Origin: Microcoleus sp. FACHB-672
Lineage (GTDB): Bacteria; Cyanobacteriota; Cyanobacteriia; Cyanobacteriales; Oscillatoriaceae
Reading direction: 5' to 3'
Assembly: GCF_014695725.1 (NCBI RefSeq)
Contig: NZ_JACJOU010000013.1
Span: forward strand, 124,001 to 188,000
DNA length: 64,000 nucleotides
The stretch's first letter is position 1. Each line of letters opens with the position of its first letter. The position numbers and the translations under genes are program-made. Of the stretch, positions 50,344-59,319 are shown in pieces. Below the pieces are notes generated by a model. The model ran no database searches. It was not told where the DNA came from and saw only the letters and a list, made by a program, of their open reading frames with translations.

Positions 50344-52941
50344 TTATGCGGGGTGCCGGTGTTTTTCAATTTCTGCAATGGGTAACAACAAGGTATTTTC
50401 TATTTCCTGCCGCACCTCACGGGACAGATAACAATCGCTATCCAAGCAATTGACTAGCAACAAGTTGGCATTGTAATACTGCTGAAGCAATTCCTTTTGG
50501 TCTTGGCTGAACTGCCAATCGTGCCCAATATTGCGATACTTAATCATTACGGCTCTTAATTGCTTAGTCCAAGCCCGACCATTATCTTTCCACCATTCTT
50601 TAAATATTTTTTCCTCAGCATTTAGAGTCGGTAATTGTTCTTTAAGTTCTTGCAGTGTTTTCTTGAGGTCGAGGGAGAGGGAGTGGTCGAGGTAGAGGGA
50701 GAGGGAGTGGTCGAGGTCGAGGTAGAAGGAGCGGTCGAGGTCGAGGGAGCGGTCGAGGTAAAGGGAGCGGTTGAGGGAGTGGTCGAGGGAGCGGTTGAGG
50801 GAGCGGTCGAGGTCGAGGGAGCGGTTGAGGGAGTGGTCGAGGGAGCGGTTGAGGGAGTGGTCGAGGGAGCGGTTGAGGTCGAGGGAGCGGTCGAGGGAGC
50901 AGTCGAAGTAAAAAGCCCGAACTGCTGCTGGTTTGTATGAACCCTCAACTGAATCAGATTTCTCCCTTAGCCATATCAAGAACTCCTGCAATTTCTGATC
51001 ATCTTCTACAAGCGAATCAGCTTGCTTTTTCATGAGCAGCAATAGCCGATCTGCACTTGGCGACATCCCAGCCGCGAGTAAAAAGACTTCCCGCCAGCGT
51101 GTTTCGGTGATGTGGCTGAGCAGATTTTGCAATGCTTCCTCTGATGATTGTTTGCCGACAATAATCTCTCTAGCTGTGAAATACTCATGAAATGTCAGGT
51201 GGGAAAATGAGTAAATTCCCTTAGCCCTTTCTACTAATAGCCCGTGTTGAGCTTCAATGGATTGTAATACTTTCTCACTGTCCAGTTGCAATGCTTTCAG
51301 GCTAGTCTTAGCATGGGGTAAATTGCGGATGTAATCTGTGATGTAGAGTTCTGCTGCTTTTTGCTTGAAGAAATAGTCTCCTTGTTCAAAGGTAGTCAAG
51401 GCTATTTTGCTGAGTAAATCTTCCTTACCTTGAACGGATAGCTTTTTGTAAATCTGATAGCGCTCAATTCCGCGCTTAGCATCCCATTTCTTCAGCAGTG
51501 CATCCAGTCCTTCTTTGTACAGTTCAGACCGATTTGCCGGAAAATCTCCGGATTCTTCAAAGACCAAACATAAGAGCGTCAGCAACAGCGGATTTGTGGC
51601 CAGCTCTCTGATTCGTTGATTGCCTTTAATACGTTTAAGAAAAGTTTCCGATTTGACGACTTTACCCTTAAACCAGTTGGTTGCAAACGTAGCAATTTGA
51701 TTATCATCAAAATCAGAAATTTCCACCTCTGTAAATTTATCAAAGGTATATTCCCGCGCTGCAATCCGGCAAGTCATCACAAAGTGACTGTCATGATACT
51801 GCTCAGAGAAATCACGAATTTCTTTTAAAACACGTTCGCTGTCATCTTCTCTAACTTCATCCAAGCCATCAAACAAAACCAACGCTCTACCGTGGGTAAT
51901 TGCCTCTTTGACAGATATGCAAAAATGCGTTTCTGCGCCAACCTTAGAAAATTGCTGATAGATGTATTCCAGTGATCCGGGTTTATTTGTAGCCTTAGAA
52001 AATTGCTGACAGATGTATTTCAGTAATCCGGGTTTATTTGCAGCTTCTGCAAAGTCCTTGAGGGTGACAAAAACCGGCACTCGCTCTGCCTGAAATTTTC
52101 CCGCAATACACTGCATCGCTACATACTTCAAAAATGTGGTTTTTCCCGCTCCCGGTTTTCCCAAGATCATCAGCTTGGGATTTTTCTCGACGGCATCCAG
52201 TCCTGGCACTCGTTTTTCAATGATTCTACCAAGTCCAAAACGCTCAAAATCCTCTGAGTTACATTCTTGCAATAGTTCAGCAATGTCTTTGCGTCGGCGT
52301 CCTGTAATTTTCTCCAGAATATTCACGTTGGTGTAGATATCATTCAACCCGATAGGCTGAGTCATATCCAGCACGCGCATTGTGCCGCAACGTTCTTGAA
52401 TAATGGGTTGTACCTTTTCCCGTACCTCTTGCACAAGCGCGTCAATCTCAATTTTGCGGGTTGGATTTGGCTCAGGTGCTGCCCGTTCTTGTTCTTTGGG
52501 TAGATCGTTGGCAATCTCCTCCCAATCCAGACCTAACTTTCTGCAAAGACGGTCGAAAATGATGTGGTCAACTGGTTTGCCAGTGAAAAATTTGGTGGGT
52601 TTTACCTTTTCCCTCACCTGGCGTACCAAGCTATCAATATCAATCACCTCGCGTACCAAGCTATCAATCTCAATTTTGGGGGTTGGATTTGGCTCAGGTG
52701 CTGCCCGTTCTTGTTCTTTGGGTAGATCGTCGGCAATCTCCTCCCAATCCAGACCTAACTTTCTACAAAGACGGTCGAAAATGATGTGGTCAACTGGTTT
52801 GCCAGTGAAAAATTTGGAAATCGTAGAGCGACTCAAACCAGTGTCACGCCTTAAACTCGTCTGATTCCACGTATTTTTGTTTAGAGCTATGTTTGCCAAC
52901 CGGATGCCGTCTGAAGATGCCTTGAGCGTACGTCTTCCCAT
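50344..52941 (-). CDS. NACHT-domain NTPase with N-terminal HTH, internal duplications and SLDRSL repeat tract (NLR-like)
   Basis: 865 residues. Residues ~20-65 form an XRE-type HTH ([18 protein letters not shown]). The segment [20 protein letters not shown] and following residues is repeated (~42-92 and ~116-166). The NACHT module has Walker [13 protein letters not shown] (~260), Walker [11 protein letters not shown] (~355), sensor TCRIAAREY, and the winged-helix region ending [14 protein letters not shown]. Residues ~677-759 are Asp/Ser/Arg/Leu repeats ([16 protein letters not shown]). The C-terminal segment [28 protein letters not shown] is a conserved cyanobacterial NACHT tail. Bacterial NACHT proteins include anti-phage NLR-like systems; immune function here is inferred. 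An antitoxin-like pseudogene lies nearby. Confidence 0.88.
50665..50910. repeat. Hexamer-based tandem repeat inside the NACHT gene
   Basis: On the plus strand the tract is built from GAGGGAGCGGTC/GAGGTCGAG units of 6 bases combined into 12-24-base higher units. It encodes SLDRSL/SLNHSL-type repeats on the minus strand. Because the unit is a multiple of three, copy-number change would keep the frame. Confidence 0.85.
51942..52043. repeat. 51-bp tandem duplication in the NACHT core
   Basis: Bases 51942-51992 and 51993-52043 are near-identical direct copies, giving the doubled 17-residue segment ([16 protein letters not shown] and [16 protein letters not shown]). It falls between Walker A and Walker B. 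Confidence 0.85.
52442..52817. repeat. 222-bp-offset direct duplication at the NACHT N-terminus
   Basis: 52442-52595 and 52664-52817 (154 bases each) differ at only about four positions and are offset by 222 bases, an exact multiple of three. A second smaller duplication, GCGTACCAAGCTATCAAT at 52621 and 52651, lies between them. The duplication repeats the recognition-helix end of the HTH and its linker. Confidence 0.9.
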
Positions 52942-53379
52942 AAGTTAACTACAAAAGTTTCATTTATTTTACTCGCGGCAATAGGTCTTTATTTTCCAAC
53001 TCATGCAACTTATGCAAGTTGTACATGAACTCAGACATAACGCATACAGGGTGGGTGTCATCCTGAAAGAGTCGTGATTCAACATCGATTTATGACCACT
53101 GCTGCACTCATCTTTATACTCCAAATTTTAGCCGCCTTGCTAGTTGAAGAGTCAGCAAAAGCCGGCTACCGAAAGCTCAAGAAGAGTAAGATTGTGAGAC
53201 GGAAAATTTGGGTAATGTGTTCTTGCCTTATCATCCTTTGGAAATCGCACAAGCGTAAGTAAAAATTGGACAAATAAAAGTCACGGAGATTAGGCGCACA
53301 CAGAATAAACCTGCCTTGATAGGTTTAATTGTTTTAAAATAATCCTGTAGCGTGAGCGCCTAACCACCGAGGCTAACCC
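52942..53379. other. Intergenic region upstream of the NACHT gene
   Basis: Contains the possible small ORF at 53092-53262 and an inverted pair TTAGGCGC (53290-53297) / GCGCCTAA (53356-53363) with partly complementary flanks, which may bound a small mobile sequence. Confidence 0.45.
53092..53262 (+). CDS. Possible small membrane protein
   Basis: 56 residues from the ATG at 53092 (a GTG at 53074 is also in frame). A hydrophobic N-terminal helix TAALIFILQILAALLVEE is followed by a Lys/Arg-rich stretch YRKLKKSKIVRRK and a second hydrophobic run. No clear Shine-Dalgarno and no family recognised; may be chance. Confidence 0.3.
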   Translation: MTTAALIFILQILAALLVEESAKAGYRKLKKSKIVRRKIWVMCSCLIILWKSHKRK

Positions 53380-58220: not shown

Positions 58221-58333
58221 GGCTGCCTTAAATAAAAAAACAGTAATCTTACTGAGGTTAGTCTCTAGTGTGGCTGCCTTAAATAAAAAAACAGTAATCT
58301 TACTGAAGTTGTCCCCTACTATAGCTGCCTTAC
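58221..58333. repeat. 51-bp tandem repeats (2 full, 1 partial) upstream of the secreted repeat protein
   Basis: 39-base units at 58221-58259 and 58272-58310 differ at one base; a third partial GCTGCCTTA at 58324 keeps the 51-base period. Each full unit holds CAGTAATCTTACTG, an inverted repeat with 6-bp arms. The last unit ends about 50 bases before the ATG, where operator or phase-variable promoter sites would lie. Confidence 0.8.
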
Positions 58334-58380
58334 AATATTGACGAACAGTCTCTCAGTAGGACGAAAAGGAGCGAATCTTT

Positions 58381-59319
58381 ATGTTTAAAAATTTGAAAAA
58401 AATTGTTAGTACCTTGTTAATTGTGATTACGATCACAGTTAACATGAGTCTTGCTTTTCCTCGTTCTGTATCAGCTAGTCCATTTCCGAACTTGAGTGAG
58501 GTAGAGCAACAGGTTAAAGGCTCGCTTCCTAATATTGATTGGCAACAAGTCAAACTCTCGGTTCCTAATTCGCTTCCCAATATTGATTGGGAGCAGGTTA
58601 AAGGCTCGGTTCCTAATATCGACTGGGAACAGGTTAAAGGCTCGGTTGCTAGCATTGATTGGGAACAGATTAAAGGATCCGTTCCTAATATTAATTGGGA
58701 CCAAATTAAAGAATCAGTCTTTAAGATTAACTTCCAAGAACTTCAACAAGCTTTTTCTGGTAATGTTCAACAGGTTATTTCTAAAGTTGATATACAACAA
58801 CTTAGAGAAGGACTTACTGATAGTGCCCTCTCACAAAAAGTTGGGGGTGTGATCGCAGGCACCAGCTCAACAGTAGTTAATCAGGCACAAAAATATCTTG
58901 ATACTACACCTGACCAGTTATGTAGTATCTATCGTGATCATTTACAAGGAATTGACAATTCTCAATGGGATGCTTTACAAACAGGTGCGGCATCAACTTT
59001 TACAGTTTTGCAAGCTGTTAATTCCGCATCAGCAGCAGGGGCAGGGGCATTATCAAGTTATGCTGGAATAGCATCAGCCGTTTCACAACTAGGCTTAGGG
59101 GGTGTAACAGCAACTGCGGCAGGACTCTTGGGAAGTAGTGCGACAGGTGCAGCCGCAACTGCGGTAGTTACATCTTTCGTTGGTGGTCCATTAGTGATGG
59201 GTGCATTATTAGCCGGCGGTACAGGTCTAGCCGCTTGGGGAAGTTATAAAACAATAGAGTTCACTGCTCAACAGTTTGATGGTTTGACGAAAGAATTTTG
59301 TACTCAGCAAACCCCTTGA
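58381..59319 (+). CDS. Secreted protein with PNIDWEQVKGS repeats and hydrophobic Ala/Gly-rich C-terminus
   Basis: 312 residues. A signal peptide (VSTLLIVITITVNMSLAF, cleavage near SVSASP) leads to five or six copies of an 11-12-residue unit of the type SVPNIDWEQVKG (residues ~38-125; 33-36-base DNA repeats), then a helical segment with two cysteines in DQLCSIYRDHL and KEFCTQQTP. Residues ~205-290 are very rich in Ala, Gly, Ser and Thr with hydrophobic stretches (VSQLGLGGVTATAAGLLG, VVTSFVGGPLVMGALLAGG) that could insert in membranes. I do not recognise the family. An AAAAGGAG site lies 10 bases upstream. TGCCGGCA palindromes, common in neighbours, are absent, hinting at transfer. Confidence 0.75.
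   Translation: MFKNLKKIVSTLLIVITITVNMSLAFPRSVSASPFPNLSEVEQQVKGSLPNIDWQQVKLSVPNSLPNIDWEQVKGSVPNIDWEQVKGSVASIDWEQIKGSVPNINWDQIKESVFKINFQELQQAFSGNVQQVISKVDIQQLREGLTDSALSQKVGGVIAGTSSTVVNQAQKYLDTTPDQLCSIYRDHLQGIDNSQWDALQTGAASTFTVLQAVNSASAAGAGALSSYAGIASAVSQLGLGGVTATAAGLLGSSATGAAATAVVTSFVGGPLVMGALLAGGTGLAAWGSYKTIEFTAQQFDGLTKEFCTQQTP

Follow-up and report, generated by a model that had tools for sequence, protein, structure and literature searches.

A fixed-site hexanucleotide array of mostly C-ending codons in a cyanobacterial NACHT–NCH2 gene family

Domain organization of the NACHT gene and its surroundings

Analysis of a 64,000-nucleotide stretch of the Microcoleus sp. FACHB-672 genome (contig NZ_JACJOU010000013.1, positions 124,001 to 188,000; hereafter, the window) located a STAND NTPase gene whose features are collected in Table 1. 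The HTH_26, NACHT, and NCH2 domains all scored above the Pfam cut-offs: NACHT reached 52.2 bits against a gathering score of 26.7, and NCH2 (PF22727) reached 138.4 bits against a cut-off of 27, with profile positions 1–96 of 96 covered. NCH2 was also over the cut-off in 9/9 relatives scanned. The NACHT match, together with the Walker A and B motifs, identifies the protein as a NACHT STAND NTPase; the invariance of the Walker residues was judged in alignments of 24 and 76 sequences.

Table 1. Features of the STAND NTPase gene (window positions).
Feature	Residues	Positions	Strand	Remarks
HTH-NACHT-tract-NCH2 STAND NTPase gene		50344..52941	minus	865 aa, uninterrupted ORF
N-terminal Cro/C1-type HTH (HTH_26)	20-71	52729..52884	minus	Pfam; pLDDT about 95-97
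154-bp HTH-half/linker segment, first copy		52664..52817	minus	offset 222 bp, 98% identity
Linker 30-bp tandem duplication, two copies		52614..52673	minus	93%
154-bp segment, second copy		52442..52595	minus	partial HTH without first helices; low model confidence
NACHT domain	258-425	51667..52170	minus	Pfam; model resembles NLRC4/NOD2/NLRP3
Walker A	261-269	52135..52161	minus	G261, K262, G264, G266, K267 invariant
51-bp tandem duplication between Walker A and B		51942..52043	minus	one helix-sized 17-aa unit; 92%
Walker B	354-363	51853..51882	minus	D358, D361, E362 invariant
Helical region from NACHT to tract, AVRAFY at end	about 430-678	50908..51654	minus	model helices; conserved alignment columns
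Dipeptide/hexanucleotide array, 79 codons	679-757	50671..50907	minus	78/79 codons end in C; 23/23 Leu in one parity
NCH2 (NACHT C-terminal helical domain 2)	759-854	50380..50667	minus	Pfam, E = 8.7e-41

An AlphaFold2 model of the protein was obtained from 76 sequences (mean pLDDT 83, pTM 0.75). Its best Foldseek matches among PDB structures were NLRC4, NOD2, and NLRP3, the matches listed having identities of 12–17% and TM-scores of about 0.2–0.4 over the whole query. The Pfam and Foldseek results agree with the preliminary description of this DNA, in which the gene product had been read as a NACHT protein related to NLRs. A sequence search of solved structures returned two weak matches (E 0.004), both to an unrelated kinase. 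No LRR family was detected at E ≤ 1 in the Pfam scan of the protein, which therefore is not an NLR in the strict sense, and no nuclease effector was found by Pfam. The array is Leu-rich, yet helical in the model.

By its domain family, the gene is a candidate for a role in defense. The PADLOC match to PDC-S60 was partial (40.7 bits). Among five neighboring window ORFs scanned by Pfam, no clear defense gene was found; three had matches (SLH, cNMP-binding, and SbcC-like). A Drt8-like defense reverse transcriptase lies on the same contig as the window (L141 1060–2673; G000:C13:360638). The window also holds a second gene with coding tandem repeats (58381–59319), whose product of 312 aa contains units of 12 residues such as SVPNIDWEQVKG; TRF rows at 58522–58730 cover these repeats, and a 51-bp tandem repeat at 58221–58337 lies upstream of the gene and near them. 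An antisense ORF (50635–50940) and an out-of-frame ORF (50622–50948) were taken as by-products of the stop-poor repeat of the NACHT gene.

Three short duplications lie in the N-terminal and NACHT portions of the gene. The 51-bp tandem and the 30-bp linker duplication are present as previously described, whereas the reported duplication of the HTH end at a 222-bp offset exists over 154 bp and is not a clean tandem, the linker beside the copies (49 bp) being 71% alike at an offset of 192. All repeats are in frame, as had been claimed: 222, 51, and 30 nt, like the 12- and 18-nt steps of the array, are multiples of 3, and the ORF is intact. Orthologs occupy the same locus in two genomes of the same genus (L011 and L012), with conserved flanks on both sides and 86–96% DNA identity to the window locus across the gene and both flanks; both lack all three duplications. 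The alignment columns for residues 81–140, which hold the 30-bp and HTH-half duplications, were filled in 0/75 aligned relatives; for columns 321–340, where the 51-bp insert lies, the counts were 4/75 and 8/75. The duplications are thus lineage-specific, in accordance with the recent origin previously proposed for them. Their suggested part in a diversification scheme did not hold, the extra HTH copy being partial and modeled with low confidence (pLDDT about 40–70); this half is probably a by-product. The three duplications look private to the lineage, incidental, and outside the diversification mechanism discussed below.

The sister-species gene L012 carries a different N-terminal module (L012 1216 to about 1510). 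Its similarity to the window DNA ends at 52446 and restarts at 53285, and the edge of the duplicated segment is at 52442. Because this break adjoins the edge, the linker may serve as a junction for the swapping of N-terminal modules.

Place, grammar, and codon signature of the array

To bound the tract throughout the family, HMMs built from a 24-sequence alignment were used to mark the conserved AVRAFY motif upstream and NCH2 downstream. Both anchors, which served as the selection criterion, were found in 130 ORFs; removal of duplicates and incompletely anchored rows left 102 distinct tracts, including that of the window and some taken from gene fragments. Their length ranged from 9 to 145 codons, and the length variability that had been anticipated from the window alone is thus real between species. 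Twelve plasmid genes were fetched in addition, three of which had C-rich tracts of 117, 137, and 155 codons. One plasmid gene, L161, has an array largely of 4-residue (T/D)SAL units and adjoins a type I restriction gene.

In the window gene, the hexamer tract previously put at about 245 bases is present and spans about 240 bp (about 50667–50906), with repeat steps of 12 and 18 nt; its unit is rather a hexanucleotide coding for a dipeptide, hence the 4- and 6-residue steps. The 12-mer redundancy was 0.73 in this tract and reached 0.15 or more in 0/99 equal-length family segments taken just upstream of the tract.

At the protein level, the unit consists of a small or polar residue followed mostly by Leu or Arg. 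Leu fell in a single parity in the window gene (23/23), L085 (43/43), and L074 (35/35), and every Leu was in one parity in 26 of the 84 tracts having at least 12 Leu. A Leu period of 2 was significant at p < 0.05 in 70/102 tracts and at p < 0.001 in 46, with p ≥ 0.05 in the other 32. The 46 most periodic tracts shared one phase relative to the upstream anchor in 39 cases and to the downstream anchor in 37. Among tracts with strong periodicity (p ≤ 0.005), the phase that holds Leu was occupied by L (47%), R (14%), F (6%), I (5%), and H (4%), and the other phase by D (23%), A (18%), S (14%), N (8%), and T (6%). A beta-solenoid formed by the alternating Leu was considered and rejected, since the models give helices, with low confidence for the long array of L085. 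The structural modeling proposed in the preliminary description gave a helical tract in the window gene and little definition in L085 (pLDDT 28–52).

In the window tract, 78/79 codons end in C, compared with 20% in the remainder of the gene. CTC accounts for 22/23 Leu codons in the tract and 9/89 outside; in L016, the corresponding values are 24/25 and 0/83. After conditioning on the amino acids and on the codon use of each gene, an excess of wobble C was found at z > 5 in 38/102 tracts and at z > 3 in 44, and z fell below −3 in none. A T-ending excess (z > 3) occurred in 24 other tracts, and 40/102 belonged to neither the C nor the T class. The entropies of positions 1–6 of the window hexamer were 1.40, 0.99, 0.00, 0.38, 1.30, and 0.17 bits; positions 3 and 6, the wobble sites, are nearly invariant. 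Diversity in this gene family thus sits in the tract, at a fixed place and with a dipeptide and C-ending-codon grammar, features that the preliminary description had overlooked.

Repetitiveness, defined as a 12-mer redundancy of at least 0.15 and assessed in the 100 tracts of at least 30 codons, was confined to the C-ending class: 21/38 C-type tracts were repetitive, as against 0/24 T-type tracts, 0/38 others, and 0/99 upstream control segments. At least one of GACCTC, GCCCTC, TCCCTC, and GACCGC was among the three commonest hexamers in 20/21 repetitive arrays. The commonest exceptions to C-ending codons in the 21 arrays were CGA and CTA, above all in L048 and L066; these two arrays are repetitive with many A-ending units, which counts against the reading that we favor below.

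Repeats are prone to misassembly, and an assembly or sequencing artifact could in principle produce such a tract. The same C-ending excess in 38/102 tracts from many genomes, and likewise in L150 and L151, both from Nostoc strains, and L161, which are plasmid records labeled complete sequence, refutes this as a general account, and we give it practically no weight.

The variable repeats of diversity-generating retroelements (DGRs) have NNC-like codons with a constant last base, and the array could accordingly stem from adenine-directed mutagenesis of an AAC-type template. Other NACHT genes are diversified by DGRs, according to the excerpted part of PMC10907252. However, the only RVT_1 match in the same genome was the Drt8-like defense enzyme, which does not qualify as a DGR reverse transcriptase; moreover, array length differs between relatives, and a hexamer template of over 200 bp would be required. 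A DGR origin is therefore judged highly improbable.

When the L011 tract DNA was searched by blastn against 40 genomes, including that of the window, eight places were matched, all of them NACHT genes, although such a search can miss arrays of other composition. Seven of the eight lay in family genes. The remaining match fell in L149, a NACHT gene of more distant relationship whose NCH2 match is weak; in it, an (Ala-Asn)n array stands in place of (Asp-Leu)n and the codons still end in C, an indication that the grammar of the DNA can persist when that of the amino acids is lost. The (AN)n array of L149 starts at GCGATCGC, the octamer known in cyanobacteria as HIP1. In 1.14 Mb of fetched loci, centered on family genes, a scan for stretches of 40 codons of which 75% or more end in C gave four rows initially unmarked as NACHT: L149, a doubtful ORF of L121 (116 aa), and L038 and L085, neither of which showed any 12-mer repetition. 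The idea that the tract is a module spread genome-wide was dismissed, since the own-genome search of the window tract returned itself and a 23-nt match (E 0.12), which is located in a paralog just before the paralog's tract.

Divergence of the array among relatives and competing explanations

Array length was observed to change between species. The near relatives L124 and L115 have tracts of 99 and 15 codons, the tract of L100 is reduced to 9 codons, and an array of this sort is missing from L002, a paralog in the window genome with 69% identity. The C label required 18 changes on a tree built from 95 sequences spanning NACHT to AVRAFY, at least 12 of them forced by the starred branches; the label is clustered relative to shuffles, which averaged 28.5 changes, with 0/500 as low as 18.

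Between orthologs, the first two codon positions of the tract changed faster than those of the surrounding gene, and the wobble sites changed more slowly. For the same-locus orthologs, third-position identity inside and outside the tract was 0.97 and 0.80 for L011 and 0.91 and 0.75 for L012, and the difference at positions 1 and 2 was 0.28 and 0.10 for L011 and 0.37 and 0.14 for L012. In 8/8 C-type pairs, which are drawn from five genes with L011 and L012 among the partners and are thus non-independent, third positions agreed more in the tract (0.88–0.97 vs. 0.60–0.80), and positions 1 and 2 differed more (0.23–0.37 vs. 0.10–0.21). This combination was lacking in 7/7 pairs with non-C tracts, where third-position identity in the tract was from 0.16 lower to 0.06 higher than outside. 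Alignment within repeats is uncertain; the constancy of the wobble base is independent of it.

Several other genes of the family deserve mention. The Tolypothrix plasmid genes L152–L154 are identical and L155 has diverged, and the Leptolyngbya boryana plasmid genes L156 and L157 are identical; the tracts of both groups have no C excess, and this within-species comparison is therefore uninformative for C-type arrays. In the window genome, the paralogs L003/L006 (G000:C20) and L004/L005 (G000:C33) have broken reading frames, and the third paralog, L002, has an open frame and lies directly downstream of a CHAT-domain gene. L093 lies on a contig labeled as a Tatlockia (Legionellaceae) MAG, and the protein of its NACHT gene shares about 94% identity with that of a Chlorogloea gene; the contig is probably a cyanobacterial one in a Legionellaceae bin.

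Selection on the residues was addressed with pairs of hexamers from one array that differ by one base, the expectation counting transitions twice and the pairs being non-independent. Synonymous pairs made up 56/339 in the 21 repetitive arrays (27.8% expected), 120/449 (26.7%) in non-repetitive C-type arrays (26.6% expected), 106/562 in T-type tracts (26.5% expected), and 109/351 in other tracts (27.2% expected). A first form of the test, covering all 38 C-type arrays, had given 176/788 against an expected 25.4%. The window array alone comprises nine distinct hexamers, with a single departure at a wobble site, and these are too few to decide. Since T-type tracts, which are non-repetitive, also show a synonymous deficit, such a deficit does not by itself single out arrays that turn over. 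We read these results as rapid turnover, with selection on the residues possible, though unproven.

These data bear on whether the array is a neutral low-complexity spacer, that is, a tolerant helical linker between domains in which slippage is free and the residues are unselected. The neutral-looking substitutions of non-repetitive C-type arrays are what such a spacer predicts, as are the near-loss tolerated in L100 and L115 and the low model confidence of the long array in L085. On the other hand, the repetitive arrays show the synonymous deficit, a free linker need not be confined to the NACHT–NCH2 family, and Leu alternation is kept in tracts with ordinary codons, such as L024 and L132, which indicates that a pattern is maintained at the protein level. 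We regard a neutral spacer as possible, if on balance doubtful.

A different account places selection on the DNA or RNA, with C-ending hexamers favored through instability promoted by a strand-asymmetric, G-rich template strand or through an effect on mRNA or translation, and with protein diversity as a by-product. Wobble C is indeed the most constant feature of the arrays. At 4-fold sites, C-rich tracts had C 1164, A 168, T 162, and G 22; the C:G ratio of 1164:22 argues against plain GC-biased conversion, which is unlikely as a sole cause. The G4Hunter score of the template strand was 1.05 in the window tract, compared with −0.08 for the upstream portion of the gene, and G-rich quadruplex-forming heptamer repeats are known in Nostoc, as stated in the excerpted part of PMC4692102. 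Nevertheless, a G4Hunter score of about 1 is borderline, and a G-run is seldom lengthened by the second codon's wobble C, because few of the following units (6%) start with C. In addition, Leu alternation outlives the decay of the codons. Selection at the DNA or RNA level is thus considered an unlikely explanation of the array as a whole, and a G-rich template strand is a possible cause of the multiplication of C-ending units.

Proposed mechanism and comparison with known systems

Taken together, these results led us to favor, at a probability of about one half, the reading that the product of the window gene is a STAND sensor of the NLR-like type and that its variable part changes through in-frame turnover of hexamers. 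The order in cyanobacterial NACHT–NCH2 proteins of this kind is an N-terminal HTH or other module, a NACHT switch, a helical region, the variable array, and NCH2, the array being a hexanucleotide run that codes for (D/A/S/N)-(L/R/F/I/H) dipeptides. This array may be repeatedly rebuilt, as six-base units are gained, lost, and exchanged in frame, probably through slippage or unequal recombination; its length and residues would then shift with the frame kept, and NACHT and NCH2 would stay conserved. The units that multiply would be mostly C-ending, with CGA and CTA as the main exceptions. Arrays that no longer turn over are presumed to age, first toward T-ending and then toward ordinary codons, often with Leu alternation kept. 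In NNC codons, no change at the first two positions yields a stop.

In eukaryotic NLRs, the signal is bound by a C-terminal repeat region after the STAND domain, according to the excerpted parts of PMC7159879 and PMC8195603. The array and NCH2 would occupy the place of this region. By analogy with the repeat arrays of fungal NLRs, the array would most likely be a variable surface that contacts a ligand or partner and switches the NACHT domain. More broadly, we tentatively suggest that cyanobacterial NLR-like genes keep a DNA-encoded diversification device: a fixed-site, mostly NNC-NNC hexamer array that is prone to in-frame expansion and exchange, is reborn in separate lineages, and could supply new sensor surfaces without a retroelement.

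If the array is a sensing surface, bacteria would vary an NLR-like receptor without a template, in a manner akin to the repeat shuffling of fungal NLRs but with units of six bases. Coding sequences ordinarily evolve the other way round from these arrays, in which the third base is nearly frozen and the first two change; the cause must be sought at the DNA level. The C-ending codon signature also offers a simple means of finding such arrays, and in cultured strains PCR or long reads would give their copy number, which makes the evolution of bacterial NLR relatives against fast-changing targets directly testable.

NACHT–NCH2 proteins have been described before, as have hypervariable repeats in NLRs, and none of the matches listed from open-access PMC text described a fixed-site dipeptide/hexanucleotide array of mostly C-ending codons in a bacterial NACHT family. 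Mammalian NLRC4, NOD2, and NLRP3 are the best structural matches of the model, with the difference that their LRR sensor is replaced by the array and NCH2 in the window protein. The antiphage protein EruA (NCBIfam NF058535) has a NACHT module in common with it; the match of 57 bits is far under the cut-off of 1000, which leaves the window protein outside EruA. The PRDM9 zinc-finger minisatellite has a unit of 84 bp. Like the window array, it is a coding repeat with mostly non-synonymous unit diversity and changing copy number; unlike it, the minisatellite encodes a DNA-binding fold and belongs to eukaryotic meiosis (excerpted part of PMC3890296).

Among bacterial proteins, anti-phage bNACHT25 combines NACHT with NCH1, as far as described in the excerpt of PMC12169576; a NACHT module with a NACHT C-terminal helical domain is common to both, that of the window protein being NCH2 instead of NCH1. 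The DGR-diversified NACHT and VMAP sensors of multicellular bacteria are likewise STAND proteins of which one portion varies, but their target is a C-type lectin, served by a template and a reverse transcriptase (excerpted part of PMC10907252), and no DGR reverse transcriptase was found in the window genome. By analogy, the closest evolutionary parallel of the array appears to be the repeat domain of fungal NLRs. The HET-D/HET-R/HNWD family of Podospora comprises NLRs with internally conserved repeats, and in the excerpted part of PMC4986451 the likeness extends to a STAND protein with an array of near-identical units, changes in repeat number, shuffling within and between family members, and diversity at some unit positions. 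The fungal units are WD, ANK, or TPR repeats of some 33–43 residues, whereas the unit here is a dipeptide/hexanucleotide of mostly C-ending codons placed before NCH2; for the fungal genes, the same excerpt reports polymorphism among alleles and positive selection, and the cyanobacterial arrays show differences in length between species.
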